From positions 1 through 39,784 of the forward strand of contig NZ_MRCD01000078.1 in the NCBI RefSeq assembly GCF_001904745.1: DNA of 39,784 nt, read 5' to 3'. The stretch is from Calothrix sp. HK-06. Its GTDB lineage: Bacteria > Cyanobacteriota > Cyanobacteriia > Cyanobacteriales > Nostocaceae. The notes under the pieces were generated by a model. It ran no database searches and was not told the origin of the DNA. It saw only the letters and a list, made by a program, of their open reading frames with translations. Positions 1,084 through 35,502 of the stretch are shown in pieces (positions within the stretch are counted from its first letter, which is position 1; each line of letters opens with the position of its first letter). Position numbers and translations under genes: made by a program.

Positions 1084-2418
1084 TTAGTTGCTGTTAGAAA
1101 CAATATCAGGTAGTTGCTTTTCTAGTAGTCTCAGAGGTTTGTATCGATAGGCGATAATTGTCGCAAGTACTGTCAGCAATCCCATCACGATAAACATTAA
1201 ACCAATACCTCGTCCTTGACCGACACCAATAATTTTTCCAACGTTGGAAGCTAAAAGACCATTTTTTGACATTAATGGTTCAAAAATTTTGTCTGCTAGT
1301 GGTCCAGCTGCTGCATAAGCCAAAGGTAGAGATGCGTTAGCAATTGCTCCAATTGTGGCAAAGACTCTACCCTGGACGTTAGAGGGTACTTTCTTTTGGA
1401 AAATAACTAATGTTGAACTATTAATTATTGGCTGACCGAAGAAGAAGAGGAAGGCTATTAAGGCTAATAGGGGAACAGATTTATAAAAACCTGCACAGGT
1501 AATACAAATTCCACCTAATAGCATAAAGCCAAATATACTATAAATACGCTTTTGTGGTCCCTTCATAGTTGAGATGAGAATGCTACTTATTAACATTCCG
1601 ACACCACCAATGGTCATAATTGTACCAAGGTCTGTAGGTGAACCAAAAGACAATACTAATGGTGTTACTAACATTTGCACGATGCCGACTAGAAAATTGG
1701 TTATGCCGAAGAAAATTAGCAGGGCAAATAATCCTTTTCTCTTGAATATATAAACTAAGCCGTAAAATGTTTCTGTTAACCAAGGAAGCGGTTCCGCTCT
1801 ATGCCTATCTATATATTGTTTTGGGAAAGGCGCCAATATTAGAATCAGCAAAGCAACAAGAAAGCTGACAACATCTATATACAGAATTGCGTCTATCTCG
1901 ATTAGGAGTAATAAAAAACCCCCTAGTATGGGCGATACTAACCGTCCGGCAGCTTCCCCCATTTGTAACATTCCATTGGCACGACTAAGGTGTTCTTTTG
2001 GAACTAAGAAGGTAGTAGCAGATGTGTAAGCTGGCCACTGAAAAGCAGTACAACATGAACTCAACATCATACCTACACATATATGCCAAATCGTTAAATC
2101 ACCTGAACTAAATAAAATAGCGATTACTGTTGTAGCAATACCTGCTCCAAAATCACTCAGGAGCATTACCCAACGACGTGGAAATCTGTCTACCAGTGTA
2201 CCCGCGATGGGAGATATCAAAATCATTGGTAAACTGCTAAACAAGCTTAGGAGAGCAAACTGTGTTACGGAACCAGTTTTTTGATATACCCATATACCCA
2301 AGGCAAAGTTACTTAGTTGAGAACCAATTAGGGAAATCATCTGCCCAAACCAGATGAGGGTAAAAACTTGCATTCCTGTATTTTTTGGATATAGAGTTTT
2401 CATTTCTTGGTTCCTCAT
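1084..2418 (-). CDS. MFS efflux transporter (MFS_3/EntS-like) of the lipopeptide cluster
   Basis: A 444-residue major facilitator protein with about 12 hydrophobic segments. The N-terminus (TLIWFGQMISLIGSQLSNFA) and the TM2-TM3 loop signature (GTLVDRFPRRWVM) are typical of the EntS-like MFS_3 branch often encoded beside NRPS clusters. It probably acts as a drug:proton antiporter in the cytoplasmic membrane and exports the peptide product or gives self-protection. Its ATG overlaps the TGA of the upstream NRPS gene by 4 bases (ATGA), so translation is probably coupled. A second ATG five codons in (position 2403, preceded by AGGA) is equally plausible. It is the last gene of the long minus-strand operon. 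It would duplicate the export role of the DevBCA system on the other arm, so one of the two may serve resistance. Confidence 0.9.
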   Translation of the reverse strand: MRNQEMKTLYPKNTGMQVFTLIWFGQMISLIGSQLSNFALGIWVYQKTGSVTQFALLSLFSSLPMILISPIAGTLVDRFPRRWVMLLSDFGAGIATTVIAILFSSGDLTIWHICVGMMLSSCCTAFQWPAYTSATTFLVPKEHLSRANGMLQMGEAAGRLVSPILGGFLLLLIEIDAILYIDVVSFLVALLILILAPFPKQYIDRHRAEPLPWLTETFYGLVYIFKRKGLFALLIFFGITNFLVGIVQMLVTPLVLSFGSPTDLGTIMTIGGVGMLISSILISTMKGPQKRIYSIFGFMLLGGICITCAGFYKSVPLLALIAFLFFFGQPIINSSTLVIFQKKVPSNVQGRVFATIGAIANASLPLAYAAAGPLADKIFEPLMSKNGLLASNVGKIIGVGQGRGIGLMFIVMGLLTVLATIIAYRYKPLRLLEKQLPDIVSNSN

Positions 2419-5400
2419 CCTTTCACCGCAGTGTCAATCAAAGTTTTCAGGTGTGTCGCTAAAACTTCTACTTGCGGCTCAAGTATCATTGATAAATGGT
2501 CACCTGGCACGAAATGTACATCAACAGGTTGATTAGAAAATTCGCTCCAGCCCCAAGCCGCATCGCTAGGTAGCATGGTATCATCGATTTCGTCACTGGC
2601 TGCATCTTCTGGATGTAACTCGGTTGCCCGGAAAAGTACGATTCGAGTTGGGTAAATATTCTTGGGAAAATAACGAGTTTGTTTATTTGCTTGGAATACT
2701 TGCACTAAACCCCGAACTTGAGTTATCCCTGCTTCTTTTGGTAAAAGGTCAACTTTTGTTAACTGTTCTTTAAAATATTGTAATTGTTCGTCAGAATTCA
2801 GCCCTTGCAATTCGTTATACGATACATCTAGGGTTTTACCACATAGACGAGAGATAATTTGGGCAAGGTAAACTAACCATGTTTCTGCATCCCAATCAAG
2901 ACGTTCTGGTAAAATACCAGGTAGCGGCGCCGGAGTATCAAAAATTGCTACCTTCGCTACCTGGTGTCCGAGATGCTGCAATTGTTGGGCGATTTCAAAT
3001 GCTACTTGTCCACCAAAAGAGTGTCCACCTAAATAATACGGACCTTCTGGTTGTACTGTTTGTATTGCTTGGATATAGTAAGCTGCTATATCTTCTACAC
3101 TCGTATGAGGTTGCGATTCTCCATCAAGTCCCAGTGCTTGTAACCCATAAAATGGTTGCTCAGTACCAAGATGGCGTGCTAAATGATAAAAGTATAAAAC
3201 GTTACCACCAGCCCCAGGAATACAGAAGAAAGGAGGTTTGGCGCCATTCGGTTGAATTGCTACTAATGGAGACCAAGGTGAAGTTTCTGACTCTTGCCGC
3301 ACAACATCTGCCATTTGGGCAATAGTTGGGTTTTGGAATAATGTCGCTAAAGGTAAATTTTTGCCTAATTGCTGTTGGACTTGGGCGACTAAGCGCACTG
3401 CTAGGAGAGAATGTCCACCAAGATTAAAAAAGTTATCGCGAACTCCTACTGGTTGAATGTTTAAAACATTTTCCCAAATTTGTACTAATTGTAATTCTAA
3501 AGCATCGCGCGGTGGCAGATAACCTGTATTTGCAATATTACGAGTTGAAGAAGGCGCCGGTAAAGCACGACGGTCTACTTTGCCATTGGGGGTTAGAGGT
3601 AAAGTGTCCAATATTACAAATGCAGAGGGAACCATATATTCTGGCAACTGCTCTTTAAGGAATTGGTGCAATGCATTCTCTGTGGGTGTTTGTGCTGCTT
3701 GCGGGACTATATATGCTACTAGACGTGGATTACCGGGTTCATCTTCACGGGCAATAACTGCTACTGAGCGTACTTGGTCATGCTGGGCAAGTAAATTCTC
3801 TATTTCTCCTAGTTCAATCCGAAAACCGCGAATTTTGACTTGATGGTCAATACGCCCAGAATATTCGATGCTACCATCTGGTAAGAAGCGGGCTAAATCC
3901 CCTGTTTTATACATCCGCGCTTCTGCTTCGTTACTAAAATGGTTGGGAATAAATTTCTGTGTCGTTAATTCTTCTCGGTTCAGATAACCTTTACCTACAC
4001 CAGCACCAGCAATATGTAATTCACCCCATACCCCAACAGGAACTGGTTGTAGTTGGCTGTCTAATATATAAGCCTGGGTATTGGCAATTGGGCGCCCAAT
4101 TGGGATAATTTGTTTGTTGAGTTCGCGTTTACAAGTCCAGTATGTGGCATCAATACATGTTTCTGTTGGACCGTAGAGATTGTGCAGTTCCGCATTCAAA
4201 AAGCTAAAGAAACGTGCTTGCAATTCGACGGTTAAAGGTTCTCCACCGCAAAATACGTTTTTAAGTGATTGGCAGTTGCCTATTTGCTCATTTTCCAAGA
4301 GCATTCGTAACAAGGTAGGGACAAGTTGTAAAGTTGTAATTTGAAGCTCAACTATTGTTTGGATAAGATAATCGCTGTCTTGATGTCCTCCTGGTCGCGC
4401 GATAACCAATTGCGCTCCTACTAATAGGGGTGCATAAAATTCCCAAACTGAAGCATCAAAACTAAAAGGAGTTTTTTGCAGAACTTTATCTGTCTCAATT
4501 AAAGGAAAATCTTTTTGCATCCAGAGCATGTGATTACAAATTGCTCGGTGCGGCAATATTGCTCCTTTGGGTTTACCCGTCGAACCTGATGTATAGATTA
4601 CATAAGCGAGGTTATCGGCAGTTACATTACAAACTGGATTAGTAAAGTTTTTAGTTGCAACATCGAAGTCAGTATCTAAACAAATTATTTCCCCTTTGTA
4701 ATTAGGAAGAAGCCCTAATAACTTTTGTTGAGTTAGTAAAACTGGTGTTTGAGCATCCTCTAACATAAAAGCTACCCGGTCTTCTGGATACATCGGGTCA
4801 ATCGGTACATACGCACCACCAGCTTTGAGAACTCCTAGTAAACCAATAACCATTTCCAAGGAACGCTCAACGCAAATACCAACTAAAACATCGGCACCAA
4901 CTCCTAATTGTTGCAAATGATGCGCTAATTGATTTGCCCTTTGGTTAAGTTGGGTGTAGGTTAATTCTTTTTGCTTGTAGACTACAGCAATATTATTGGG
5001 GGTGCGTTCAACTTGTTCTTCAAATAGTTGATGTAGGCATTTGTGGAATGGAAAATCTACTTGCGTATTATTGAAATCTACTAGAAGCAACTGCCGCTCT
5101 GCATCACTTAAAATTTCACACTTCTCGATTGCCACTTGAGGGTTTTCGATAACGCTTGTCAACAGCTTTTGATATTGAGTTGCTAATTGTTCGATATCTG
5201 TTTGTGAAAATAAACTAGCATCATAATGAAACTCGGCAACCAGAACATCACCCTGCTGAACAAAAGAGAGTTTTACTTGAAAATAATCAATACATGTATA
5301 TTGTTTAAATATTGAGAATGTGACTATATCAGTAGAAAGATTGGGAGGTTGTTTAATAAAATCAAAGCAGAAAGGAAATTTAGGAATATTTGTATTGCTT

Positions 5401-6413
5401 TCTAAAACATCTTCCCAGTTAAAGCATTCTTGAAAAGAGTAAGCTTGGCTTTGGGCTAAAGCGACTTTCTCTAAAACTTCACTAAACTGTAAGCCACTTT
5501 TGATAGAGCAATATAATGGTACATATTTAGCAAATAGTCCCAATGCTTCCTGAAGTTCTTCTTCTGGTCTGCCATCGCAACCAGTCCCAATAATCATGGA
5601 TGATACTCCAGTTAGACGCCAAAGCAGGATTTGCCAGCAAGACATTAAAAATATACTTTCGGTCGTATCAAGCTCGGCAACTAGGGAAGCTAATTTAGAT
5701 GCTAATTGTGGATAAATGGTTTGAGTGAGGCTTTTTGGGGTAAATTGAGTTTCGTGATATAGATTTTCTTTTGGTAGTTTTAAATTGAAAATTGAACTAA
5801 TATCATTTTGGCGCCAGTATTGTTTACCAATCTCAGCGTCTTCTGATTGCAGTAATTCATTTAGCCATTCGGAGAATAAAATATACTGTACGGGTTCTTC
5901 CGCTAATTGCTCGCTATGTTCAGGTGCATTGTATATAAGACTAATTTCTGTCACCAAATTTTGCAGTGATTTTCTATCTGCGTATAGAGCAGGTAAATTT
6001 AGTAATAAATTATAATTATCAACTGACAGTTTTACGAGTGATACTTCCAACAAGGGAGCTTTTTCAAAGTCAATCGGTTGCTGCAAAGGTAATTCAAATA
6101 GAGCGGTAACAGCATTTTGTTGTTGGTCAGATTCTAGGCTGCTAAAGTCGTAATGTTGAATTGATACAATGCTATTATCTTCAATAACTTGTAACGGCAT
6201 GGTCATTCCTGGCAAGCAACGGAAGCTAGTACGAAGAATTTCATGACGTTCGATAACTGTTTGTAAGGCGCCGTTAAATCTGTCAAGATTTAGATTACCG
6301 TTAATTTCTACAGCACACAGCGCGCGGTAAGGTATGTTTGTGCTGTGCTGTAAATGCCATAGACGTTTTTGCTGAGGGGATAATTGAAAACCCTGAATTA
6401 TTCCGCTATCCAT
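2415..6413 (-). CDS. Terminal NRPS module: (degenerate C)-A-PCP-thioesterase, Gln-like A domain
   Basis: A 1332-residue NRPS. The C-like domain occupies about residues 8-440, but where HHxxxDG should stand (about 141) it has LPALYADRKS, so it should not condense. The A domain spans about 460-945 with YTSGSTGKPKG near 607 and YKTGDLARF. Its ten-residue code by alignment with GrsA is D-A-W-Q-F-G-L-I-D-K, which I recall as a glutamine code of fengycin/plipastatin synthetases. The PCP has LGGHSLL near 1002. The type I thioesterase (about 1050-1330) has Ser in GGHSFGG near 1131, a candidate Asp in AIFDTPAP and His in GDHLSM near 1307. It is the last module and releases the product by hydrolysis or cyclisation. 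The working condensation domain would be the one at the C-terminus of the upstream NRPS (7810-12387). The TauD oxygenase gene sits directly upstream. Confidence 0.93.
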   Translation of the reverse strand: MDSGIIQGFQLSPQQKRLWHLQHSTNIPYRALCAVEINGNLNLDRFNGALQTVIERHEILRTSFRCLPGMTMPLQVIEDNSIVSIQHYDFSSLESDQQQNAVTALFELPLQQPIDFEKAPLLEVSLVKLSVDNYNLLLNLPALYADRKSLQNLVTEISLIYNAPEHSEQLAEEPVQYILFSEWLNELLQSEDAEIGKQYWRQNDISSIFNLKLPKENLYHETQFTPKSLTQTIYPQLASKLASLVAELDTTESIFLMSCWQILLWRLTGVSSMIIGTGCDGRPEEELQEALGLFAKYVPLYCSIKSGLQFSEVLEKVALAQSQAYSFQECFNWEDVLESNTNIPKFPFCFDFIKQPPNLSTDIVTFSIFKQYTCIDYFQVKLSFVQQGDVLVAEFHYDASLFSQTDIEQLATQYQKLLTSVIENPQVAIEKCEILSDAERQLLLVDFNNTQVDFPFHKCLHQLFEEQVERTPNNIAVVYKQKELTYTQLNQRANQLAHHLQQLGVGADVLVGICVERSLEMVIGLLGVLKAGGAYVPIDPMYPEDRVAFMLEDAQTPVLLTQQKLLGLLPNYKGEIICLDTDFDVATKNFTNPVCNVTADNLAYVIYTSGSTGKPKGAILPHRAICNHMLWMQKDFPLIETDKVLQKTPFSFDASVWEFYAPLLVGAQLVIARPGGHQDSDYLIQTIVELQITTLQLVPTLLRMLLENEQIGNCQSLKNVFCGGEPLTVELQARFFSFLNAELHNLYGPTETCIDATYWTCKRELNKQIIPIGRPIANTQAYILDSQLQPVPVGVWGELHIAGAGVGKGYLNREELTTQKFIPNHFSNEAEARMYKTGDLARFLPDGSIEYSGRIDHQVKIRGFRIELGEIENLLAQHDQVRSVAVIAREDEPGNPRLVAYIVPQAAQTPTENALHQFLKEQLPEYMVPSAFVILDTLPLTPNGKVDRRALPAPSSTRNIANTGYLPPRDALELQLVQIWENVLNIQPVGVRDNFFNLGGHSLLAVRLVAQVQQQLGKNLPLATLFQNPTIAQMADVVRQESETSPWSPLVAIQPNGAKPPFFCIPGAGGNVLYFYHLARHLGTEQPFYGLQALGLDGESQPHTSVEDIAAYYIQAIQTVQPEGPYYLGGHSFGGQVAFEIAQQLQHLGHQVAKVAIFDTPAPLPGILPERLDWDAETWLVYLAQIISRLCGKTLDVSYNELQGLNSDEQLQYFKEQLTKVDLLPKEAGITQVRGLVQVFQANKQTRYFPKNIYPTRIVLFRATELHPEDAASDEIDDTMLPSDAAWGWSEFSNQPVDVHFVPGDHLSMILEPQVEVLATHLKTLIDTAVKG

Positions 6414-6550
6414 TAAGCTTTATTCCATTTCCAATATTGTGCTAGTTATCTATAGGGTTAGAAAAGCTATTTTAAGCACCAGCACAACACTGGAAAACGC
6501 AAATTTTTCTAAAAAATCGTTGAAAAGCTTGAAATAGAAGGATTTTTATT

Positions 6551-6642
6551 TTTTTACCACAGAGACACAGAGGGCGCAGAGAAGAGAGTACGGCTATGAT
6601 GTCGTCTTACTTCTGTGTTCTCTGCGCCTCTGTGATAAAAAT
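6551..6642. repeat. Imperfect palindromic interspersed repeat (CACAGAG family), downstream of the TauD gene
   Basis: The left arm, beginning TTTTTACCACAGAGACACAG at 6551, and the right arm, ending CTCTGTGATAAAAA near 6642, pair with a few mismatches around a short centre. The same sequence family appears at 7738-7806 on the other side of the TauD gene. Repeats with this CACAGAG/GGCGCAGAG composition are common in Nostocales intergenic DNA. In RNA it would form a strong hairpin between TauD and the terminal NRPS gene, so it could attenuate or stabilise the message. Confidence 0.65.
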
Positions 6643-6657
6643 AATTAATTAGACTGC

Positions 6658-7710
6658 TTAAGAAGAGACGCCTATGCTACGTGTGAAGGGTGTGCCCATT
6701 GCCGTCAAAACCTTTCTGGCGCCGGAGAAAGGTTTACGTCCGTGAGATACTAACATATTGTCTAACATCAAGATATCGCCTTTGTGCCAAGGGAAAACTT
6801 TAGTTTCTGCATCGATGATTCCTTGGATTTCTTGAATTACTGAGTTTTCAATTGGGGAACCGTCGCCGTAATAAGTATTGTATGGTAAATCGTCTACGGT
6901 AAATTCGCTCAAGAATTTTTCACGAAAATCTGCAAGTAAGCTTGAAACGTGCCAAAATACGATGTGATTAAACCAAATCATTTCACCAGTAATTGGATGT
7001 TGAGCTACTGCTGGACGTACTTGACGAGTTCTAAGACGATTTTCGTCTTTCCATTCAATATCAATTTGAGCATTATGACAATACTCTGCTAAGACTGTTT
7101 TATCGTTAGTCCCAAAGCTTCTCTGCCAAGGTAGTCCAAACCCATCACCAAAATTCCTAACTAACATCCATCCTTTTTCGATGAAACGCTCTCTAATTTG
7201 TACCGGAATTTTTTGGTAAACTTTTCTCATATCGGCAATTGGTGTTTCTCCTTGGGTCGCTGCTGGTTGGATGCAGCAAAACCAGATTTTCATGGGCCAG
7301 GTAATAACATACGATAATTCGTTGTGTTGTGCGATTGAGTGTTCTGGTGGAAATTCTGTAGATGTATAAACTTTGTCACTCAGTTTTGTACGTGGTGTTG
7401 CTCCTTCTACATAGTTAATGAGTTCTGAGCATATACCCTTAACGAATCCCTCGAAGTCTTCTTGGTTATTTATATCAAAACCTCTAAATAATATTCCACC
7501 GTGTTTTAATAATGTAGTTTCGATAAATTCACGATTATTCTGCGACCAAGTTTGTAAGTTTAAATCTTTGAATTTGGGCTGGATTAGTAATGGTAGCGTT
7601 TCTTCGGACTGTAAAGGTGTGATATTTACTAATTCTTGTTGCGATAAACTAATTGCTGCTGGCTTAAAATCTTTTTTCGCTAGCATTTGCTTGAATGTTG
7701 TAGTCTTCAT
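6658..7710 (-). CDS. TauD/SyrP-family Fe(II)/2-oxoglutarate-dependent oxygenase
   Basis: A 350-residue member of the TauD/TfdA superfamily, closest in pattern to the SyrP-like tailoring hydroxylases of NRPS clusters. Iron ligands can be read as His129-x-Glu131 (QHNELSY) and a distal His near 323 (SHGRKPFSG), with the Arg of RKP/ARK available for 2-oxoglutarate. The segment LLKHGGILFRGF is a typical N-terminal core strand. SyrP-type enzymes hydroxylate the beta carbon of a carrier-bound amino acid, so I infer hydroxylation of a PCP-tethered residue, perhaps the Gln-like residue of the next module. The start is supported by GGAG six bases before the ATG. The gene lies between two NRPS genes in the same operon but is bracketed by two copies of an interspersed repeat. 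Confidence 0.87.
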   Translation of the reverse strand: MKTTTFKQMLAKKDFKPAAISLSQQELVNITPLQSEETLPLLIQPKFKDLNLQTWSQNNREFIETTLLKHGGILFRGFDINNQEDFEGFVKGICSELINYVEGATPRTKLSDKVYTSTEFPPEHSIAQHNELSYVITWPMKIWFCCIQPAATQGETPIADMRKVYQKIPVQIRERFIEKGWMLVRNFGDGFGLPWQRSFGTNDKTVLAEYCHNAQIDIEWKDENRLRTRQVRPAVAQHPITGEMIWFNHIVFWHVSSLLADFREKFLSEFTVDDLPYNTYYGDGSPIENSVIQEIQGIIDAETKVFPWHKGDILMLDNMLVSHGRKPFSGARKVLTAMGTPFTRSIGVSS

Positions 7711-7737
7711 TAATTTCTCCTAGATGTTTATTTTTTA

Positions 7738-7806
7738 TTTCTCTGTGCCCTCTGTGTCTCTGTGGTGAAAGCTTTTTCCCACAGAGGTACAGAGAACACA
7801 GAGGGG
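7738..7806. repeat. CACAGAG-family palindromic repeat, upstream of the TauD gene
   Basis: An imperfect inverted repeat (CCCTCTGTGTCTCTGTGG paired with CCACAGAGGTACAGAGAACA) fills most of the 99-bp gap between the C-A-PCP-C NRPS gene and the TauD gene. It is the same family as the repeat at 6551-6642. It begins just upstream of the TauD ribosome binding site. Confidence 0.65.
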
Positions 7807-7809
7807 GTT

Positions 7810-19001: not shown

Positions 19002-19061
19002 AATTTTATTAGACGTATGTAGCGATTGAATATTTAAAATTGTAGGTTGGGGAGCCACCGC

Positions 19062-20828: not shown

Positions 20829-20871
20829 ATTCAATATATTACTTATGTGCTTTAATAAAGACTTTCATTTT

Positions 20872-24000: not shown

Positions 24001-25981
24001 CTAAAGAGCTTAAACCGTATTGTGCCAAAGGTTCATAGATATCTATAAGCTTTGGAGAAACCTGTAATTGTTCTGCGACTTTGGCAATTAGCCAAGCTTC
24101 GATTGCTTCTGTGTTTGCTGATTGGCATGTTGAAGACCTCTCCCCCAACCCCTCTCCTACGAGGAGAGGTGAGTGATTCCCTCGTGCCTCCCCCTTCCCT
24201 TGTAGGGAAGGGGGTTGGGAGGTTAGGTTTTGAGAGTAAGAATCAATACTCCAAGAAGCTACGACATCAAGGGTGCCATTTTCAAATTCAGTTCGGCAAG
24301 TACTGCGTCGAACTTTACCCGAAGAGGTTTTGGGCAAACTATTTGTTTTGATTAGCAGAATGGCATGAGTTTGTAAATCGTGGTGTTCTGCTACAGCTTT
24401 ACGAATTGCTCCAATTACTTCATCCGCATTGAGCTTACGAAGGTGGCTGCGCTCTACTTCTTGGACTATTACTAACTTTTCTGAGTTGTTAATTTCAACC
24501 GCAAATGCTGCTCCACTGGCAGGACGTAAAGCAGGATGACTCTTTTCTACAGTGAGTTCAATATCTTGGGGATAATGATTGCGACCCATGATAATGATTA
24601 AATCCTTTAGGCGCCCAGTTATAAACAACTCGCCATTTTCCAGATAACCTAAATCACCTGTACGTAAAAATGATTTAGTGCTATCTGATGCTAAGTGCGC
24701 TTGAAAAGCTTGTTTAGAAAGTTCGGGACGATTCCAATAACCTTGAGCGACACTTGGGCCTGATACCCAAACTTCTCCAACTTGTTGCTCTGGACACGGG
24801 ATTAATAATTCAGGGTTTACTATTAATACTTCTTGTTCAGAATGACTTTGACCACAACCAACAATTGCCTTGGCATCACCTGCTGTAGTATTTACCACTC
24901 GGTTTTGTGCCAAATCTGTAGTTTCAATATGGCGAATAATTGGAGTTTGTGATTTCAAACCACCAGTGACTATCAAAGTCGTTTCTGCCATTCCATAGCA
25001 AGGATAAAATGCTTCACGACGAAAACCGCAAGGTGTAAAAGTTTCGGCGAAACGCTCTAAAGTTTGGGGACGTATAGGTTCCGCTCCTGTAAATGCTACT
25101 TCCCAACTGCTTAAATCGAGCGTTGCTAGTTGTTCTGGAGTTATTTGCCGTGCAGCAAGGTCGTATGCAAAATCTGGGGCACCGCTGGTGGTAGCTTTAT
25201 AGTGAGAAATTGCCTGTAACCATCGAAAAGGTTTTTGCAAAAAAGCTACTGGAGGCATTAACGCAACGGGGAAACCACCATAAAGAGGCTGTAGCACACC
25301 ACCAATTAATCCCATATCATGATAAGGTGGTAGCCAAATTACACCGTGGCTTTCGGGCGTATGTTCGTAAAATTGATAAATTAACTTAGAATTATGTAGT
25401 AAATTGCCGTGGGTAATCATTACCCCTTTAGGTGTGCCAGTAGAACCAGACGTATATTGCAGAAAAGCTAAAGTATCGCTATTTATAACTGGGTTTTGCC
25501 AAGTAGACGCGAAGTCAGCATTAAGGTTATCGGTAGCTAACCAAGGAAACGCTGCTAAAGTTTGATTTTCTGCCAATTGAGTTTTCATACCAGCTAACTC
25601 AGATGCTGTAGTCAGCGCAACTACCGCTTCTGCATCGGACACAATCGCTTGTAACCGAGACATTTTTTGGTTGCGTCGGGGTGGATAAGCGGGAACAGCA
25701 ACAAACCCAGCATACAAACAGCCAAAGAAAGCAGCGACAAATTCTAAACTCGGTGGATAAAGTAATAAAGCACGTGAACCTGGAGTTCCATGTTGAAGAA
25801 GTTGAGTTGCAATTGCGCGTGCTTTTGTATCTAATTCTTGATAAGTTAAACTAGCGCTTTCTGTTTCTCCATCCGAAAGAAAAGCATAAGCTTTAAGTTC
25901 GGGTTGATTTTGCGCTCTATAACGTAATAAATCTACTAAAGTGTTAAATTGAAGCGAATTGTTATTGTAACTAGTATTCAT
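21038..25981 (-). CDS. FAAL-ACP-KS-AT: fatty acyl-AMP ligase loading and PKS extension protein
   Basis: A 1647-residue protein. The fatty acyl-AMP ligase (about 1-580) has LQYTSGSTGTPKG near 183, LIIIMGRNHYPQDIE and KTSSGKVRR near 553. It activates a fatty acid as acyl-AMP and loads it on the following ACP (GLSSLAA near 657). The ketosynthase (about 715-1140) has Cys in DTACSSS near 882 and His in EAHGTGT and NIGHLEA. The acyltransferase (about 1255-1550) has GHSFGEY near 1329 and HAFHS near 1432, which favours malonyl-CoA. There is no KR, DH or ER, so the product is a beta-ketoacyl thioester, the substrate expected by the downstream aminotransferase. It ends in a coil (QQLQLMSQQLEAMR, 1620-1633) and has no ACP after the AT; the partner ACP is on the next protein. 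Residues 584-616 are encoded by an interspersed repeat. AGGA lies before the ATG. Confidence 0.95.
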   Translation of the reverse strand: MNTSYNNNSLQFNTLVDLLRYRAQNQPELKAYAFLSDGETESASLTYQELDTKARAIATQLLQHGTPGSRALLLYPPSLEFVAAFFGCLYAGFVAVPAYPPRRNQKMSRLQAIVSDAEAVVALTTASELAGMKTQLAENQTLAAFPWLATDNLNADFASTWQNPVINSDTLAFLQYTSGSTGTPKGVMITHGNLLHNSKLIYQFYEHTPESHGVIWLPPYHDMGLIGGVLQPLYGGFPVALMPPVAFLQKPFRWLQAISHYKATTSGAPDFAYDLAARQITPEQLATLDLSSWEVAFTGAEPIRPQTLERFAETFTPCGFRREAFYPCYGMAETTLIVTGGLKSQTPIIRHIETTDLAQNRVVNTTAGDAKAIVGCGQSHSEQEVLIVNPELLIPCPEQQVGEVWVSGPSVAQGYWNRPELSKQAFQAHLASDSTKSFLRTGDLGYLENGELFITGRLKDLIIIMGRNHYPQDIELTVEKSHPALRPASGAAFAVEINNSEKLVIVQEVERSHLRKLNADEVIGAIRKAVAEHHDLQTHAILLIKTNSLPKTSSGKVRRSTCRTEFENGTLDVVASWSIDSYSQNLTSQPPSLQGKGEARGNHSPLLVGEGLGERSSTCQSANTEAIEAWLIAKVAEQLQVSPKLIDIYEPLAQYGLSSLAAVRLSGELQEWLGQELSPTLLYDYPSIAALAQYLTSVSPAQQKVVSQTRRDNEAIAIVGIGCRFPGANSPEAFWELLRNGVDAISEVPSERWNANTFYDPNRAVPGKMNTRWGGFLEQVDKFDPLFFGISPREAECMDPQQRLLLEVSWEALEHAVKAPDKLAGSNTGVFVGISNFDYSHLQPNSSALDAYTGTGNAFSIAANRLSYFLDFRGPSWAVDTACSSSLVAVHQAINSLRQGECELALAAGVNLILKPELTITFSQAGMMSSNGRCKTFDADADGYVRGEGCGVVVLKRLADAQRDGDNILAVVKGSAVNQDGRSNGLTAPNGPAQQAVIRQALHNAGVSPASISYIEAHGTGTFLGDPIELNSLKAVLSEGRSQEQPCVIGSVKTNIGHLEAAAGIAGLIKTVLSLHHEQIPPHLHLKQVNPHISFAETPFSIKTQLTPWKGQRRLAGVSSFGFGGTNAHIILEEAPRTIQKTTSEQRPLHLFTLSAKSENALRELARRYETYLSNDPDASIADVCFSANTGRSHFEHRLATTVKSNIDLITVLGAYSVGKTMPQLVSGRVGNKKRQKIAFMFTGQGCQYVNMGRELYETQPTFRNCINQCDEILRPYLDQPLLSVLYPESDSNLINETVYTQPALFALEYALVQLWKSWGVEPTAVIGHSFGEYVAACVAGVFTLEEGLKLVVERSRLMQQLTSSGAMAAVFASGATVQAAIAPYNQEVTISAINAPDNITISGAITAVEAVLTQLEAKGIEARRLEVSHAFHSPFMDEMLDAFEELTNKVQFRAPTITFVSNVTGNILLPGQIPGAQYWRSHTREAVNFMAGVNALLAEGYELFIEIGSKPVLSSLGKRCQQEANATWLPSLSTRQSNWETLLESLSNLHIQGVDIDWAGFDKDYSRQKVTLPTYAFQRKRYWVQTENTVDKSPINSTQIAVQPSETVSRALISKVMKQQLQLMSQQLEAMRTPNNFLPNFPEIAA
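24135..24231. repeat. Interspersed palindromic repeat inserted in frame within the PKS gene
   Basis: A sequence starting ACCTCTCCCCCAACCCCTCT, with an internal hairpin (CTCTCCTACGAGGAGAG) and a second hairpin (CCCTTCCCTTGTAGGGAAGG), lies between the FAAL and ACP coding segments. It is the same repeat family as the fragment at 12468-12493. It is translated as a low-complexity linker (contains QPPSLQGKGEARGN and LLVGEGLGERSS, residues about 584-616) and keeps the reading frame. Confidence 0.8.
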
Positions 25982-26122
25982 GAGATTCCTAAAAATAATA
26001 AAATTGACATTACGTAGATTGGGTTGAGGGACGTTAACGGAGTTATCGCTTATGAAAACCTAACAAAAGACGAATATTGATACAGGTGCTTTCTTCTTTT
26101 AGATAGAGTTGCTAATGGGAAT

Positions 26123-26674
26123 TTATGCAATGCCGCAATATACTGGCTTAAGCCCTAAATTGCTATTACAAGCTTGAATTTGTATAAACAATGCATCTAT
26201 ATCTGCTTGTAATTGCAACAAATCTTGTTTAGGATTCGCAACCCAAGTATACATAGCATTCAAACTACCGTTGATAAAATTATCTTTACAAGTATGATAA
26301 TCAAACTCACCACTTGATGTTTTGGGAATACTATTTGCTTTGAGAAGTGCAATTGCGTAAACAGACAGTCCGTTATTGCGTGAAATTTCAGAACGAATAT
26401 TTCTAATGATTGTATCCACATCTAGATTTGGTAAATAAGTTCTTTTCACCTCTTGAATGACTACCAACCGCTCTTGGTAGTTTACTTCTAGAGAAAATGC
26501 CATCCCTGACCCTCGTCTTAAAGCTGGATGACTCTGCTGAACAGTGATTGCAATATGAAAACGATTATGATTACGACCTTGAATCATGATTGAGTTCCGC
26601 AAAAGGTCATCTTGGTCTACACAAACAGCTTCTTGTTCCTGATACTTATCAGCAACTAATGCTAGATTATTCAT
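26123..26674 (-). CDS. Stand-alone FAAL C-terminal-domain-like protein lacking the catalytic lysine
   Basis: A 183-residue protein aligning with the C-terminal subdomain of the FAAL in the next gene. It has IMIQGRNHNRFHIAITVQQS against IIIMGRNHYPQDIELTVEKS, and SHPALRRGSGMAFSLEVN against SHPALRPASGAAFAVEIN. The A10-type motif reads IPKTSSGEFDYHTCK, so the lysine that completes adenylation in the full enzyme (SSGK) is replaced by Glu. No N-terminal AMP-binding domain is present, so it cannot be a ligase by itself. About 45 C-terminal residues are extra. It is the first gene of the minus-strand operon, with a plausible promoter upstream. Possible roles are docking to the FAAL or ACP, or regulation; alternatively it is a decaying duplicate. 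The intact frame and promoter-proximal position argue for some function. Confidence 0.8.
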   Translation of the reverse strand: MNNLALVADKYQEQEAVCVDQDDLLRNSIMIQGRNHNRFHIAITVQQSHPALRRGSGMAFSLEVNYQERLVVIQEVKRTYLPNLDVDTIIRNIRSEISRNNGLSVYAIALLKANSIPKTSSGEFDYHTCKDNFINGSLNAMYTWVANPKQDLLQLQADIDALFIQIQACNSNLGLKPVYCGIA

Positions 26675-26708
26675 TGGTTTCTCTTTTAAATAATTAAATG
26701 GATTGTAA

Positions 26709-26728
26709 AGACGTTACATGTTACGTCT
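26709..26728. repeat. Palindrome AGACGT-N8-ACGTCT in the divergent spacer
   Basis: AGACGTTACATGTTACGTCT has perfect 6-bp outer arms and a partly symmetrical centre. It resembles the AGACGCGA palindromes at 20927 and 29446. It lies 35 bp upstream of the FAAL fragment start, so it would be in the 5' leader of that operon. Confidence 0.5.
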
Positions 26729-26803
26729 CTACATGTATTACATGAACACGTAATCTACTGTGATTACATTATTTTAGGTAGGATGATAAATTTAATATTT
26801 CAT

Positions 26804-26832
26804 ATTATAGCAGGATTTTCTTACATCTACAA
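26804..26832 (-). promoter_or_regulatory. Candidate sigma70-type promoter of the minus-strand biosynthetic operon
   Basis: On the minus strand, TTGTAG (26832-26827) and TATAAT (26809-26804) are separated by 17 bases. The -10 box is a perfect consensus and the -35 matches at four of six positions. It would start transcription about 120 bp upstream of the ATG at 26674. This is prediction from sequence only. Confidence 0.45.
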
Positions 26833-27023
26833 CAATTTGCTTTTTTGACGCACCCGTTTTCTAATCCTGTCAGTATATTACGTTTGACTTTGTACATTTA
26901 TGCACTTTCTGCATTTTTATCAATTACTTGCGTTGGTGGCTGCATAAACCGAATTGGTCAACCCTATCGAAATATAGGCACAACGCTTGAGATATGGCAA
27001 ATAGTAAGTGAGGATTCGCATTA

Positions 27024-28247
27024 ATGGACATTTTTCGTAAACCAGTAAGCTTGGAAGGGAAATCAAAAAAATTGGCTGTAGCTTTACTAGTTCCGTTAGG
27101 AATAGCAGCTATCGGTGTTCCGGCATATATTTTTTCTACCAGTTCTAATTTTCGTTTGCCAGCTACTAATCAAACAAATGTTACCCCAATTCCGGTTCAA
27201 AAGCCTGTAAATACTACTATTGCGGCGTTAGGACGAATTCAAACCAAGGGTAAAATCATTAATCTTTCCGGCCCATCAGCTTTACAATCTGCGAGATTAG
27301 ATAAAGTGTTGGTAAAAGATGGAGAGGCAGTCCGTCGTGGACAGGTAATTGCAGTTATCGATAACGTCATTCAACTTCAAGCAGCTTTAGATAAAGCCAA
27401 ATTTGGAGTTAAAGTTGCTCAAGCACAACTAGCTCAGGTTAAAGCAGGAACTACAAAACAAGCGGACATTGCTGCTCAACAAGCACGTATTGCAGACTTG
27501 GAAGCTCAGTTTAGAGGGAGTGTGAATACTCAAAGAGCTAAAATTGCCCGCTTACAAGCTGAACTGAGAAATGCCCAAACCGAATATGGGCGTTTTGATT
27601 CACTGTACAAACAAGGAGCTATTTCTGCTTCTACAAATGATACTAAGCGTTTGGCAGTAGACAGCCTGCAAGCACAGTTAAACGAAGCTCAAGCTAGCCT
27701 GGGACAAGTTTTATCATCTTTTCCCAACCAAATACAAGAAGCGAAAGCTAGCTTGGGTAAATTGAAAGAAGTTCGTCCTGTAGATGTGCAGGTTGCCCAA
27801 AGCGAACTGGAAAAAGCAATAACCGCTGTTCCAGAAGCAAAAGCCAATGTTGATTTGGCTTATATTCGGGCGCCGATAGATGGTAAAATTTTGAAAGTAA
27901 ATGTCTTTCCGGGCGAGACAATAGGTGATAAGGGGATTGTTGATTTAGCTCAAACTCAGGAAATGTACGTAATTGCAGAAGTTTACGAGACTGATATCAA
28001 TAAAATTAAAGTTGGCCAAACAGCAATAATATCTAGCAAAGCTTTAGCAAAAAACTTAACGGGTAAAATAGAAATAGTTGGGGCACAAGTAGGTAAGAAA
28101 AACGTTGTCAATAGTGACCCGACTTTAGATGTAGATTCAAGAGTGGCAGAAGTTAAAATTCGTTTAAACTCAGCAGATTCGCCTCAAGCTGCTAAGTTCA
28201 TTAATTTACAAGTAGATGTAAAAATTGAAACTGCCAATAATAAATAG
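27024..28247 (+). CDS. ABC exporter membrane fusion protein, HlyD/DevB family
   Basis: A 407-residue periplasmic adaptor. A membrane anchor lies near residues 17-38 (KLAVALLVPLGIAAIGVPAY). One lipoyl half is near KVLVKDGEAVRRGQVIAVID. A long helical hairpin rich in Ala, Gln and Glu follows (about 120-250), and the second lipoyl half is at YIRAPIDGKILKVNVFPGE. A beta-barrel region containing YETDINKIKVGQTAII comes last. The DevB-type C-terminus and the two genes that follow make this the fusion protein of a DevBCA-type exporter, which works with an outer-membrane TolC-like channel to carry amphiphiles such as glycolipids across the envelope. Here the neighbours suggest a lipopeptide cargo. GAGG lies about 10 bp before the ATG. 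It is the first gene of the plus-strand arm. Confidence 0.92.
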   Translation: MDIFRKPVSLEGKSKKLAVALLVPLGIAAIGVPAYIFSTSSNFRLPATNQTNVTPIPVQKPVNTTIAALGRIQTKGKIINLSGPSALQSARLDKVLVKDGEAVRRGQVIAVIDNVIQLQAALDKAKFGVKVAQAQLAQVKAGTTKQADIAAQQARIADLEAQFRGSVNTQRAKIARLQAELRNAQTEYGRFDSLYKQGAISASTNDTKRLAVDSLQAQLNEAQASLGQVLSSFPNQIQEAKASLGKLKEVRPVDVQVAQSELEKAITAVPEAKANVDLAYIRAPIDGKILKVNVFPGETIGDKGIVDLAQTQEMYVIAEVYETDINKIKVGQTAIISSKALAKNLTGKIEIVGAQVGKKNVVNSDPTLDVDSRVAEVKIRLNSADSPQAAKFINLQVDVKIETANNK

Positions 28248-28283
28248 TTAAGCAATATTAATTAAAATAGGATATTTTTTATT

Positions 28284-29441
28284 ATGAGCCGCCAAACACC
28301 CATTGCTTGGTTACAATTAATTCACCGTAAAGCTCGCTTAGTTGTGACAATTACAGGTGTTACGTTCGCTGTACTATTAATGTTTATACAGTTAGGTTTC
28401 CGGGATGGTCTTTATGAAGATTCAGTCACTTTTCACAAAATCATAGATGCAGAATTAGTTTTAATCCATCGCGATACCGAACGTTTTTTTGAAATGAAAG
28501 AGTTTCCTCGGAGGTATCTTTATAATATGTCAGCAAGTGATGGAATTGCATCAATTAATCCTTTTTATTTTGGGATTGGCAACTTTAAAAATATTGAGAA
28601 TTCCATAATTAGACCTTTGGTGGTTTGTGGGTTCATGCCAGATAAACCTGTTTTCAAGCTAGCAGAAATAAATCAGCAAGTAGAAGTTATTAAAGCTGCG
28701 GACACAGTATTATTTGATAGACTTTCTCGACCCGACTTTGGGCCAATTGTCGAAAAGCTAACTGCACAAGGTGAAGTTATCACAGAAATATCAAATCACC
28801 GAACCAAAATTAGAGGATTGTTTTCTCTGGGAGGTGGAGTAATGTCAGCTAGTGGTGCGCTGATTACTAGCGACTTAAACTTTTCTAAACTTTTAGATAG
28901 ACCAATTGAAAAAGTTAACATGGGGGTTGTTAAACTTCAACCAGGTGTAACTCCGCAAAGTGTGATTGCAAAACTATCGAAAGAATTACCCCAAGACGTA
29001 AAATTGATTACGATAGATGAATTCATGAAACTCGAAAAAGATACTTTAGCTCAAACTACACCTATCGGATTTATTTTTAATATGGGTACAGTTATAGGTT
29101 GTGTGTTTGGTGGAATTATTGTTTATCAGATTTTGTACACGCAAATATCAGATAGTTTATTTATTTATGCAACCTTTAAAGCAATTGGATATGGAAATAC
29201 ATATTTAGTAAAAGTCGTATTGCAACAAGCGTTTTTAATGTCACTAATTGGTTATATTCCTGGCTTTGGATTTTGTATGTATATATATAACTTCGTTCAA
29301 GAAGCGACTCGTTTACCAATGATTATGACGATTACGCGCGCAGTGATGGTGATGCTACTAACAATTGTTATGTGTTCTCTGGCTGGTTTACTAGCTATGA
29401 ATAAACTCCGTTCAGCAGACCCCGCAGAACTTTTTGGTTAA
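28284..29441 (+). CDS. devC: ABC transporter permease, DevC family
   Basis: A 385-residue permease with MacB/FtsX topology: one N-terminal membrane helix (about 17-38, VTITGVTFAVLLMFIQLGF), a large periplasmic domain, and three C-terminal helices (about 265-290, 310-335 and 350-378). The opening TPIAWLQLIHRKARLVVTI is a hallmark of DevC proteins. It lies 36 bp after the fusion-protein gene and before the ATPase gene, the usual devBCA order. The symbol denotes the family; this copy is likely dedicated to the adjacent lipopeptide rather than to heterocyst glycolipid, which is an inference from context. Confidence 0.92.
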   Translation: MSRQTPIAWLQLIHRKARLVVTITGVTFAVLLMFIQLGFRDGLYEDSVTFHKIIDAELVLIHRDTERFFEMKEFPRRYLYNMSASDGIASINPFYFGIGNFKNIENSIIRPLVVCGFMPDKPVFKLAEINQQVEVIKAADTVLFDRLSRPDFGPIVEKLTAQGEVITEISNHRTKIRGLFSLGGGVMSASGALITSDLNFSKLLDRPIEKVNMGVVKLQPGVTPQSVIAKLSKELPQDVKLITIDEFMKLEKDTLAQTTPIGFIFNMGTVIGCVFGGIIVYQILYTQISDSLFIYATFKAIGYGNTYLVKVVLQQAFLMSLIGYIPGFGFCMYIYNFVQEATRLPMIMTITRAVMVMLLTIVMCSLAGLLAMNKLRSADPAELFG

Positions 29442-29445
29442 AAAC

Positions 29446-29465
29446 AGACGCGATATATCGCGTCT
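29446..29465. repeat. Perfect 20-bp palindrome between devC and the ATPase gene
   Basis: AGACGCGATATATCGCGTCT is perfectly self-complementary and differs only in its central bases from the palindrome at 20927-20946. It lies 4 bp after the devC stop. It could form a hairpin in the operon mRNA, but no U-run follows directly, so a terminator is doubtful. Confidence 0.7.
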
Positions 29466-29504
29466 CTATATTGCTAACTCATAACTCATAACTATTCATT
29501 AATT

Positions 29505-30200
29505 ATGCTTGAATCAACTATTTCTATTCAATATGTCAATCATTACTTTGGCAAAGGCTCATTACGTAAACAGGCCTTATTTGATATTAACCTCTCAATT
29601 CACTCTGGTGAAATTGTGATTTTAACTGGTCCTTCTGGTTCTGGTAAAACAACATTATTAAGTTTAATTGCTGGTCTACGTACTGTACAAGAAGGTAGTA
29701 TTAAAGTTTTAGACAGGGAGGTATATCGAGCTAGCAATCAAAAATTATTAAAATTACGGCGCCAAATAGGGTATGTTTTCCAAAAGCATAATTTAGTACC
29801 GTTTTTAACAGCTAGCCAAAATGTACAAATGACTTTAGAGTTAGGAGGAAACCTATCTCGTAAAGAAATGTGTCATCGGGCAGAAGCAATGTTAGAAGTA
29901 GTTGGTTTAAAGCACCGCATTAACTATTTCCCCGACCAACTTTCCGAAGGACAAAAACAACGTGTAGCATTTGCACGTGCGTTAGTAACTCAACCTCAAT
30001 TAATTCTTGCTGATGAACCGACAGCATCATTAGATAAAAATAGTACAAATACTGTCGTCGAAACTTTAAAAGACCTTGCAAAAAATCAAGGTCGTTCAAT
30101 TCTCTTAATTACTCATGATAACCGGATTCTTGATATGGCCGACCGTATCGTTCACATGGAAGATGGTCATTTAATCAATGAAACCAAAAGATACATCTAG
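29505..30200 (+). CDS. ABC transporter ATP-binding protein, DevA family
   Basis: A 231-residue nucleotide-binding protein with Walker A GPSGSGKTT (about 41-49), Q-loop VFQKHNLVPFLTASQNV, signature LSEGQKQRVAFARAL, Walker B LILADEPTAS and H-loop LLITHDN. SEGQ instead of SGGQ in the signature is common in the DevA/LolD-like group. It powers the DevBC-type exporter encoded upstream. Confidence 0.93.
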   Translation: MLESTISIQYVNHYFGKGSLRKQALFDINLSIHSGEIVILTGPSGSGKTTLLSLIAGLRTVQEGSIKVLDREVYRASNQKLLKLRRQIGYVFQKHNLVPFLTASQNVQMTLELGGNLSRKEMCHRAEAMLEVVGLKHRINYFPDQLSEGQKQRVAFARALVTQPQLILADEPTASLDKNSTNTVVETLKDLAKNQGRSILLITHDNRILDMADRIVHMEDGHLINETKRYI

Positions 30201-30202
30201 CG

Positions 30203-30286
30203 GACTTCCAAAAATTAAATTCTCCATATTGTGGGATGGACACCCACCCCATAAGAAAATTTTTGTTATTTATTTAATTGGAAGTC
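30203..30286. repeat. Long imperfect hairpin repeat between exporter and oxygenase genes
   Basis: GACTTCCAAAAATTAAAT at 30203-30220 pairs with ATTTAATTGGAAGTC at 30272-30286. An inner TGGGATGG/CCACCCCA pairing closes the centre. A TGTGGGATGG core inside AT-rich arms is a recurrent cyanobacterial intergenic repeat type. It may act as a partial terminator or mRNA stabiliser. Confidence 0.6.
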
Positions 30287-30369
30287 TCTAACAAAATTTT
30301 ATAAACCCGGTTTTTTTGTATATGTCACAACATCTAACACATCTAATTTTAATTACAGAGGTATTTCTC

Positions 30370-31233
30370 ATGCAATCTACAACTAATTCCATTATCAGAC
30401 TTTATAAACCTACCAAACAAGAATTTTTAAGCCAGGTGAAGCAAGGTAAACCTTTTCTTATTAATGGTGTCGCTGACCAATGGAATGCTTATAAAAATTG
30501 GTCTAATGATTATCTTGTTAATGTATGTGGAGACAATCTTGTACCTGTTGAAACTTACGCTAAAAACTTTTCTCAAAATTACAACTACGCATGTCTAGAT
30601 AACTACCATCGTAAACCAATGCCATTTAAAAAATATCTTGATGTGGTTAACGGTAATTATAATGATGATAATTATTCTTATTACATGGCTCAGGTCGATT
30701 TTCCTAAGTATTTCCCCGAACTGGTAAAAGACATAGTATATCCAGAATACTTTCAGAAAAAGCCAAAAGTAACATATCTATTTTTTGGTTTTTCTAATCA
30801 AAAATCGACTTCAACATCTTATCTACACTTTGATGAAGTACATAATATTTTCGTGCAAATTCGTGGACAAAAACGATTTCTATTATATCCACCTTCCAAT
30901 TATCTTTCATTCTATCCGTTTCTTGAGGATAATCGCCAGACATCAACTATGAGCAAAGTCAATCCCGATAAAGCCAATATGGAATCATTTCCTAACTTTC
31001 CTTGGCAAGACAAAATCGAGATTATTCTTGAGGCAGGTGATATACTTTACTTACCGCCTTTTTGGTGGCACCATGTCACATCCGTAAGCGAAAATATCTC
31101 GTTGACTTTTTGGTATCCTCCAAGCGTCAAGGACTTTTTCACACAAACAGGTTTCTTTTCAAGTTTTTGTCAAATGGCGCCTCATGTTCTTCCTCGTATG
31201 TTAACTTCTGAGCTTAAAAAAAGTTTAACCTAA
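30370..31233 (+). CDS. Cupin_8/JmjC-like Fe(II)/2-oxoglutarate oxygenase
   Basis: A 287-residue protein using the ATG at 30370, preceded by AGAGGT at a good distance; an upstream TTG at 30316 lacks support. The fold is read from IRLYKPTKQEFLSQVKQGKP, FLINGVADQW, the metal motif YLHFDEVHN (His-x-Asp near 153-155), the strand GQKRFLLYPPSNY and GDILYLPPFWWHHV, which carries the distal His (about 234-235). This is the layout of cupin_8/FIH-type protein or small-molecule hydroxylases. It probably hydroxylates a residue of the cluster's peptide, possibly after or during assembly. A distant alternative is a housekeeping hydroxylase carried along. Its place between the exporter genes and the type II thioesterase on the same strand supports a tailoring role. 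Confidence 0.82.
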   Translation: MQSTTNSIIRLYKPTKQEFLSQVKQGKPFLINGVADQWNAYKNWSNDYLVNVCGDNLVPVETYAKNFSQNYNYACLDNYHRKPMPFKKYLDVVNGNYNDDNYSYYMAQVDFPKYFPELVKDIVYPEYFQKKPKVTYLFFGFSNQKSTSTSYLHFDEVHNIFVQIRGQKRFLLYPPSNYLSFYPFLEDNRQTSTMSKVNPDKANMESFPNFPWQDKIEIILEAGDILYLPPFWWHHVTSVSENISLTFWYPPSVKDFFTQTGFFSSFCQMAPHVLPRMLTSELKKSLT

Positions 31234-31256
31234 AATTTTAATTATTTAATACAAAC

Positions 31257-32003
31257 ATGTGTACCGCACAAACCTCTACTCGTTGGATTTGTAATCAACC
31301 AAATCGCCAAGCATCAAAACGAATGTTCTGTTTTCCATATGCAGGTGCAGGCGCCTCGGTATTTCGCAATTGGTCAAATCAACTTTTACCGGAGGTTGAA
31401 ATTTGCCCAATACAACTTCCTGGACGCGAAGGGAGAATGGCAGAACCTCTATTTACAAAACTTTCTCCTTTAGTTGAAGCATTATCAAAAGCTTTACTTC
31501 CCTACTTAGACCTTCCTTTTACCTTCTTTGGACATAGCATGGGAGCTTTAGTAAGCTTTGAAGTTGCTCGCTTTCTTCAAAGTCACTATAATATATCTCC
31601 AAAGCACCTGTTTGTTTCGGGGCGCCAAGCTCCACAATTACGTAGTTCAAAACCACCAATTCATCAACTCCCAGACAATCTGTTTATCGAAGAATTGCGT
31701 CGTTACAACGGTACACCAGAGATGGTATTACAAAATCATGAACTTTTATCTCTGTTTTTACCAATTTTACGAGCCGATTTCGCAATTAATGACACTTATA
31801 CTCACACTAATATGCCGCTTAACTGCCCAATAACAGCTTTTGGTGGATTGCAAGATTCAGGAGTTAGCCTTACTGATATTGCTGCTTGGCGATATCAAAC
31901 TAATAGTGACTTCTCTATGCACATGTTTCCTGGCGACCACTTTTTTATAAAAAACGAGCGTGAGCAACTTTTATTGCTTATTGCGGAAACGATGTACGAA
32001 TAG
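31257..32003 (+). CDS. Type II (editing) thioesterase
   Basis: A 248-residue alpha/beta hydrolase of the GrsT/RifR type. It has the opening FCFPYAGAGASVFRNW, PIQLPGREGRM, the nucleophile Ser in FFGHSMGAL (about 98-106), a candidate Asp in GGLQDSGVSLTDI, and His in MFPGDHFF. Such enzymes remove wrong or stalled acyl groups from carrier proteins of PKS/NRPS assembly lines. It is separated by only 23 bp from the oxygenase gene and ends the plus-strand arm. No clear Shine-Dalgarno is visible before its ATG. Confidence 0.94.
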   Translation: MCTAQTSTRWICNQPNRQASKRMFCFPYAGAGASVFRNWSNQLLPEVEICPIQLPGREGRMAEPLFTKLSPLVEALSKALLPYLDLPFTFFGHSMGALVSFEVARFLQSHYNISPKHLFVSGRQAPQLRSSKPPIHQLPDNLFIEELRRYNGTPEMVLQNHELLSLFLPILRADFAINDTYTHTNMPLNCPITAFGGLQDSGVSLTDIAAWRYQTNSDFSMHMFPGDHFFIKNEREQLLLLIAETMYE

Positions 32004-35464: not shown

Positions 35465-35502
35465 TCAGGAATCTAATATATTATTCCATATATCCCGTAA
35501 AT

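Follow-up and report, generated by a model that had tools for sequence, protein, structure and literature searches.

The window analysed here (the whole stretch of 39,784 nucleotides, positions 1-39784 of the 43815-base contig NZ_MRCD01000078.1 from the 10.0 Mb genome of Calothrix sp. HK-06) carries a polyketide synthase (PKS)/nonribosomal peptide synthetase (NRPS) cluster, in which a gene for a TauD-type iron/2-oxoglutarate-dependent (Fe/2OG) hydroxylase is followed by one for a condensation-like domain, C*, that has lost its condensation motif. The locus belongs to a known kind of system; its unfamiliar parts are the glutamine-type partner of the TauD/C* pair and a cassette exchange recorded between related clusters. 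Searches of the translated window proteins with Pfam and NCBIfam profiles gave strong Pfam matches for every domain of the series FAAL-ACP-KS-AT / ACP-LLM / AMT-C-A-PCP-E / C-A-PCP-C / TauD / C*-A-PCP-TE (LLM, luciferase-like monooxygenase; AMT, class-III aminotransferase; TE, thioesterase), all on the minus strand, as an initial annotation had read directly from the sequence. The minus-strand gene order equals the biosynthetic order: an orphan FAAL C-terminal-like domain (26123-26674), the FAAL-ACP-KS-AT loading and extension protein (21038-25981), the ACP-LLM protein (19161-20834), AMT-C-A-PCP-E (12678-19058), C-A-PCP-C (7810-12387), TauD (6658-7710), C*-A-PCP-TE (2415-6413) and a major facilitator superfamily (MFS) exporter (1084-2418). 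DevB, DevC, DevA, a Cupin_8 oxygenase and a type II thioesterase (TEII) are encoded on the plus strand.

The same annotation correctly gave two exporters, which are MFS and a DevB/DevC/DevA ABC system (27024-30200, plus strand), and two oxygenases, of the TauD type (PF02668) and the cupin type (PF13621); no N-methyltransferase was matched among the window proteins in the Pfam scan, again as it had stated. Its end point of 32003 has to be moved, because the Ser/Thr protein kinase gene at 32622-33791 (minus strand; PF00069, 3.9e-37) has a counterpart of 55-60% identity within 4 of 4 relative clusters checked, and another in a fifth (G473), so that the cluster reaches 33791. At the other side the contig starts 1083 bases beyond the MFS gene, and further cluster genes are therefore possible past that edge.

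The expected catalytic residues are found in the translations: DTACSSS in KS, GHSFG with HAFH in AT (the malonyl type), the carrier serines, GHSFGG in TE, and HNE plus the distal His in TauD. The E domain of module 1 matches the Condensation model, as E domains generally do. The C domain of module 2 is DCL-like and that ending the C-A-PCP-C protein LCL-like, subtypes that rest on best matches and on location behind E, not on a subtype model.

A proposed interface domain and its putative hydroxylase partner

C* (5049-6413, minus strand) is full-length. Of the five full Condensation matches in the contig its score is the lowest, and the HHxxxDG of the window's other C and E domains is replaced by NLPALYADR. 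Downstream of TauD, 44 of 44 C* domains lack the catalytic HH, which 4 of 4 other C/E domains of the window keep; because C* domains were picked out by their likeness to the C* of the window, this set is not blind. The window's C* falls into one clade with 36 other TauD-adjacent C* domains (support 98/98*), and the replacement motif recurs there. A separate condensation domain for module 3, with an intact HHIICDG, is provided by the LCL-like C that ends the C-A-PCP-C protein.

The TauD protein (PF02668, 2.5e-46) is the only one of this kind in the Calothrix genome. Matches were found in 77 of 291 genomes of an order sample (E 1e-30) and in 123 of 217 genomes of the family (E 1e-60); a plasmid search returned 78 records, all below 60% identity. 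Forty stretches were read, 39 around TauD and LLM hits and one of the window's own contig, and the order C / TauD / C*-A recurs across the order's TauD stretches. The TauD tree and the C* tree each group the window with the same 10 rows. From the clade, the motif loss and the recurring layout, C* is best read as an interface domain with TauD as its partner, Gln replacing Asp. C* and TauD together would thus form a single trans beta-hydroxylation layout and not two separate oddities, and TauD, docked by C*, should beta-hydroxylate the carrier-bound Gln in trans.

The nearest described systems are the potashchelin and cyanochelin siderophore pathways, which share the C / TauD / second C-like domain-A-PCP layout and FAAL loading; the potashchelin line reads FAAL-ACP-C-TauD-C-A(Asp)-PCP (PMC7100376; this and the other papers cited here by PMC number are drawn on in excerpt). 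The excerpted text of PMC12971057 gives Asp or His as the substrate of the described siderophore interface-domain classes. The window TauD is ~50% identical to cyanobacterial TauDs beside Asp-coded modules. In contrast to those siderophore pathways, the partner A domain in the window is of Gln type, the predicted product has three residues and no uptake gene was seen among the window proteins scanned. Because the A3 code is that of Gln and not of Asp or His, the module is regarded as a variant and is not filed as a siderophore module.

The 45 TauDs used in the trees came from the top of the hit lists and are no random sample; one has no C* in its stretch and four have no readable A code. The 41 readable partner codes comprise 19 Asp, 15 Asn-like, 3 Gln and 4 other. 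A use of TauD clades as acid/amide classifiers was dropped: the first trees gave a clade of TauDs with Asn and Gln partners, and seven added TauDs put further Asn-coded ones elsewhere. In three stretches (L069, L070, L077) C* is followed by A domains with unusual codes (SSRDVAMGI, DSALIAEVW) of unassigned substrate; the two SSRDVAMGI codes are possibly misaligned.

A family of clusters and a recorded exchange

When the A1 domain was searched against 217 family genomes, six others gave 72-77% identity and the next best 63%; in the order sample only the window exceeded 62% among 291 genomes. These searches score few candidates per genome, up to 7 for A1 in the family and 5 in the order sample. 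Seven of the 217 genomes hold the cluster, namely the window's and G362, G396, G413, G473, G352 and G348. Common to all seven are AMT-C-A(DVENxGAIT), a variable module, TauD, C*-A-PCP-TE and MFS; FAAL-ACP-KS-AT, HlyD-FtsX-ABC (DevBCA), the orphan FAAL domain and the kinase were also seen in the six other than G348. The G348 cluster lies on two stretches ~130 kb apart that were partly fetched; it was left out of the six-cluster trees, and both it and G473 out of a five-cluster identity matrix. Judged from open-licence PubMed Central text, with no cluster collection such as MIBiG compared, the family is apparently undescribed. The epimerase lies in module 2 in the six relatives and in module 1 in the window.

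For residue 3, the window and G352 carry a Gln code and the remaining five clusters DATKxGEVG. We take DATKxGEVG to mean Asn by analogy with DLTKIGEVGK, itself presumably an Asn code. PMC12283262 lists DLTKIGEVGK in its section on Asp and Asn, and DLTKIGHV matches the Asp code of SrfAB (PMC3207962).

Between G352 and the clusters of G362, G413 and G396 identity is mostly 70-93%, with FAALc2 lower at 62-64%. The lowest values are those of C* (42-43%), TauD (51-53%) and A3 (55-59%), after which TE (88-90%) and MFS (88-91%) return to background. In the six-cluster trees of the loading protein, transport plus kinase, A1 and AMT-C1, G352 and G473 form a pair at 100, whereas the TauD, C* and A3 trees each split the window and G352 from the rest at 100. 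The A3 domain of the window (3564-5048, minus strand) is 80-81% identical to that of G352.

The exchange can be followed at DNA level. A blastn comparison of G352 and G473 from the module 2 gene to MFS gave matches at 86, 77 and 84%, separated by two gaps. The first covers the A2 pocket (residues 689-846). The second, ~4.3 kb long, takes in TauD and C* as well as the A3 pocket, which has a Gln code in G352 and an Asn-like one in G473; it opens within the module 2 gene, 54 bases short of its end, and closes at residue 780 of the C*-A gene, where its edge adjoins the conserved PIGRPIANTQ just behind the YGPTE pocket core. Matches of ~67% inside this gap represent background homology, and the tail of the A domain, PCP and TE lie outside the exchanged block. 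In module 2, the pocket was exchanged alone and the C domains did not move; in module 3, it was exchanged with C* and TauD. Since the match between these sister clusters is broken only over TauD, C* and the A3 pocket (and over the A2 pocket), the hydroxylase, the interface domain and the pocket moved together. In G328, TauD, C* and a Gln pocket occur together in a different pathway (63%, 49% and 63%).

The joint exchange and the co-occurrence in G328 are the best evidence on this point and suggest that TauD, C* and the A3 pocket work as a unit. A stronger statement, to which we give even odds, is that TauD, C* and the pocket half of A are a transplantable unit that switches between beta-hydroxy-Asn and beta-hydroxy-Gln, the pair reading the same side chain as the pocket, and that the version in the window and G352 is Gln-specific and makes 3-hydroxyglutamine. 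To our knowledge, 3-hydroxyglutamine has not been reported from any interface-domain system. Engineering of beta-hydroxylation needs a list of the parts that travel together, and a natural exchange with sharp edges gives a testable rule. The interest of the cluster therewith shifts from its likeness to microginin pathways to a cassette exchange recorded between relatives, and the family is a new lipopeptide target.

Residue codes, predicted product and alternatives

Pocket codes were read from a multiple alignment of A domains and are DVENIGAITK for A1 (14454-15953, minus strand), DAFFLGGTFK for A2 and DAWQFGLIDK for A3. Cyanopeptolin synthetase has an Ile/Val code, DAFFLGVTFK (PMC2533009), that differs from the A2 code at one position, and the Gln code DAWQFGLINK (PMC3992020) likewise differs from that of A3 at one position, in agreement with the Ile/Val-like and Gln-like residues of the initial annotation. 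A1 matches 9 of the 10 positions of the Arg consensus (section 11 of PMC12283262). Additional A1 relatives of 58-62% were read in twenty fetched stretches. Two of these, L182 and L193, encode a C-A-PCP enzyme that has the code DVENVGATI or DVENVGAIT, stands after a Pro-type module and carries a terminal thioester reductase (TIGR01746); L190 combines DVENIGAIT with the same reductase. AerM, which accepts Arg and comes after the Choi module (PMC10143770), has the same C-A-T-R layout as the L182 and L193 enzymes. Residue 1, which the annotation had given as epimerised and otherwise left blank, is thus probably Arg on its code and its relatives; Lys, Orn, Har or an Ahp precursor may be considered and rank below it. 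A search of open-licence PubMed Central found no paper with a DVENIG or DVENVG code, and none on hydroxyglutamine in cyanobacterial lipopeptides. Two further stretches, L178 (G111) and L179 (G440), encode FAAL-ACP-C-A(DVENVGAIT)-PCP-E and then a C-A whose code is Asn-like; this is another lipid-D-Arg-like pathway, and neither stretch contains an AMT.

For the lipid head, the annotation had proposed a 3-amino-2-hydroxy acyl group by analogy with microginin and puwainaphycin, and the enzymes found are of that kind: FAAL, one PKS extension, AMT and an LLM of the MupA/Atu3671 family (TIGR04020, 545.6 bits against a cut-off of 244.45). The window LLM is 74% identical to that within a KS-AT-ACP-AMT-LLM-C protein of G216. 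A contig scan of named genomes found two loci, in Nostoc linckia FACHB-104 and Trichormus sp. M33_DOE_039, that share the KS-AT-ACP-AMT-LLM layout. The stretches fetched for the six relative clusters showed no LLM; in these clusters an ACP is fused ahead of AMT where the window has its separate ACP-LLM protein. Genome-wide searches in G352 and G328 gave weak partial matches alone; in G352 these were the ACP part and, elsewhere in its genome, a single partial match to LLM at 30%. Because LLM, the module 1 epimerase and TEII are seen only in the window among the seven clusters, the bestatin-type pharmacophore is not a family trait, and its alpha-hydroxyl looks peculiar to the window cluster.

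In the pathway that we propose, FAAL would load a fatty acid onto the first ACP, KS-AT would extend it by one malonyl unit on the ACP that is fused to LLM, AMT would install the 3-amino group and, in the window member, LLM would add the 2-hydroxyl. Module 1 would then add the Arg-like residue, epimerised in the window cluster, and module 2 Ile or Val; the LCL-like domain would condense residue 3, and the non-condensing C* would dock TauD for beta-hydroxylation of Gln on the module 3 carrier. TE would release the product as a free acid or a ring, for export by MFS and DevBCA. Loading, extension, beta-amination, alpha-hydroxylation by LLM, the three NRPS modules and export follow what is known of the puwainaphycin (PMC4219810) and microginin (PMC12250027) families. 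The predicted product is 3-amino-2-hydroxyacyl-D-Arg-Ile/Val-(3-OH-Gln). We assign a probability of about two in three to the reading that the locus is a member of a small lipotripeptide family, in which C* docks TauD for Gln beta-hydroxylation and TauD, C* and the A3 pocket form one exchangeable cassette.

Several observations weigh against this reading. Product and chemistry are predicted from gene content, the pocket numbering depends on a GrsA stretch taken as reference, and the meanings of the Asn and Gln codes are in part presumed. Position 278 of A1 is N where the Arg consensus has D; the code of the Ahp position in cyanopeptolin synthetase, DVENAGVVTK (PMC2533009), lies three positions from that of A1, and two A1 relatives at 58-60% (L183, L188) bear the Ahp-position code DVENAGVVT. 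The four unassigned partner codes fit neither Asp, Asn nor Gln, and the tree of 45 TauDs needs 4 changes for the Asn label; as its phylogeny mixes acid and amide partners, substrate choice is not readable from TauD alone. The exchanges are also not confined to the cassette, since AMT and C1 of G352 are only 61-64% identical to those of G362, and its A2 (61%) and PCP1 (68%) diverge from those of G413 and G396; exchange as such is therefore common in these clusters. In the TE tree, support for the G352/G473 pair is only 76. In the window itself TE (56-58%), E (54-55%) and C2/C3 (52-53%) are far from those of the relatives, so that this recombinant cluster might behave differently.

The initial annotation favoured a microginin-like metallopeptidase inhibitor, and a linear lipopeptide of that type, its 3-amino-2-hydroxyacyl head inhibiting zinc aminopeptidases and TauD and the cupin being mere decoration, is the strongest alternative, although we consider it improbable. 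AMT and LLM are indeed of the microginin/puwainaphycin kind, and the annotation's view that three amino acids set the window apart does not hold, as the excerpts of PMC12250027 give microginin pathways 2-6 NRPS modules and include three-residue oscillaginins. Against this, what the family shares is Arg-X-hydroxyamide and not an alpha-hydroxylated head, the nearest six clusters being TauD lipotripeptide clusters with no LLM in the fetched stretches. Residue 1 is epimerised in the window, which is unusual for the residue right after the head in microginins, and N-methyltransferase matches are absent from its proteins. The layouts differ as well, with ACP-AMT-LLM-C in the microginin and puwainaphycin pathways and ACP-LLM / AMT-C in the window, to which the TauD/C* module, DevBCA, the kinase and the orphan FAAL domain are added.

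It is distinctly less probable that C* is simply a decayed condensation domain and that TauD acts on the lipid, a free amino acid or the released peptide. Docking is deduced from sequence, and Cupin_8 and TauD could share or swap roles, Cupin_8 proteins having been proposed for Leu and Asn hydroxylation in laxaphycins (PMC7524897). However, a decaying domain is hard to reconcile with a full-length C* in one clade with a recurring replacement motif, or with its move together with TauD and the A3 pocket when the module 2 pocket exchange in the same pair left the C domains in place. The laxaphycin/scytocyclamide pathways share with the window a FAAL-ACP, KS, AT-ACP-AMT head that gives a beta-amino acyl group, and Cupin_8 genes, but their peptides have 11-12 residues and their hydroxyasparagine is ascribed to Cupin_8, in contrast to the window hydroxyamide, which we ascribe to TauD/C*. 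Least likely of all is a siderophore, in which TauD and C* would derive from beta-hydroxyaspartate siderophores and the product would chelate iron. The Asp-coded modules are the most frequent TauD partners in the set above, and CyanoBH_Asp hydroxylase classes are known from cyanochelins (PMC12971057); yet none of the three A domains has an Asp code, the partner being Gln-type, and the scan, which covered window proteins and not the remainder of the genome, found no TonB receptor or siderophore uptake gene. A single hydroxyamide is, moreover, a poor iron chelator.

Neighbouring genes and further observations

The MFS exporter (PF07690, 5.6e-40) is 76-77% identical to those of G352, G362, G413 and G396. 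On the plus strand, the DevB-family membrane fusion protein (27024-28247; TIGR02971), the DevC-type permease (28284-29441; TIGR01185) and the DevA-type ATPase (29505-30200; TIGR02982) are followed by the Cupin_8/JmjC-like Fe/2OG oxygenase (30316-31233; PF13621, 2e-48) and TEII (31257-32003; PF00975, 1e-46). TEII was not found in the relatives' stretches and has no counterpart in the cluster spans of four relatives. The cupin is optional in the family: the window, G352 and G362 have it at full length, the copies of G413 and G396 are short or interrupted, and none was seen in G473. Its nearest PDB sequences are JmjC hydroxylases, JMJD5 first, and a plasmid search gave 3 records, all below 31% identity. 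In laxaphycins, Cupin_8 proteins are proposed to act on residues of epimerase modules (PMC7524897), which would be residue 1 in the window cluster. A kinase search of the Calothrix genome gave 49 matches at E 1e-20; as the cluster kinase is kept inside all four relative clusters checked, it may be a dedicated regulator.

In the loading protein FAAL is 79-81% and KS 81-85% identical to those of four relatives. The orphan FAAL-like domain, whose Pfam matches are under cut-off and which has counterparts beside FAAL in five relatives, reads SSGE at the SSGK lysine site of FAAL, where the relatives have GK or RK. An in-frame repeated element occupies the FAAL-ACP linker at 24134-24208 (residues 592-616 of the FAAL protein) and is absent from 4 of 4 relatives read; its 21-base core pattern occurs at 11 genome sites, including that of the window, with up to 2 mismatches, and a reversed control gave 0. 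Three QQxxxMSQQLE-like helices stand at PKS protein junctions, at the C-terminus of 21038-25981, in the middle of 19161-20834 and at the N-terminus of 12678-19058. One such helix is found at the FAAL protein end in each of G352, G413 and G473, and none by this pattern in G362; these are possible docking helices. Elsewhere, a stretch of G014 (L060) encodes a protein in which FAAL and LLM are joined without an intervening PKS, and behind it C-A-PCP-E and C-A-PCP-TE, possibly an oxidised-acyl dipeptide pathway. Adjoining the cluster, positions 34325-39774 of the window encode two phage-type integrases, a weak HNH match, an EAD1 protein and WD40 repeats, possibly a mobile region.

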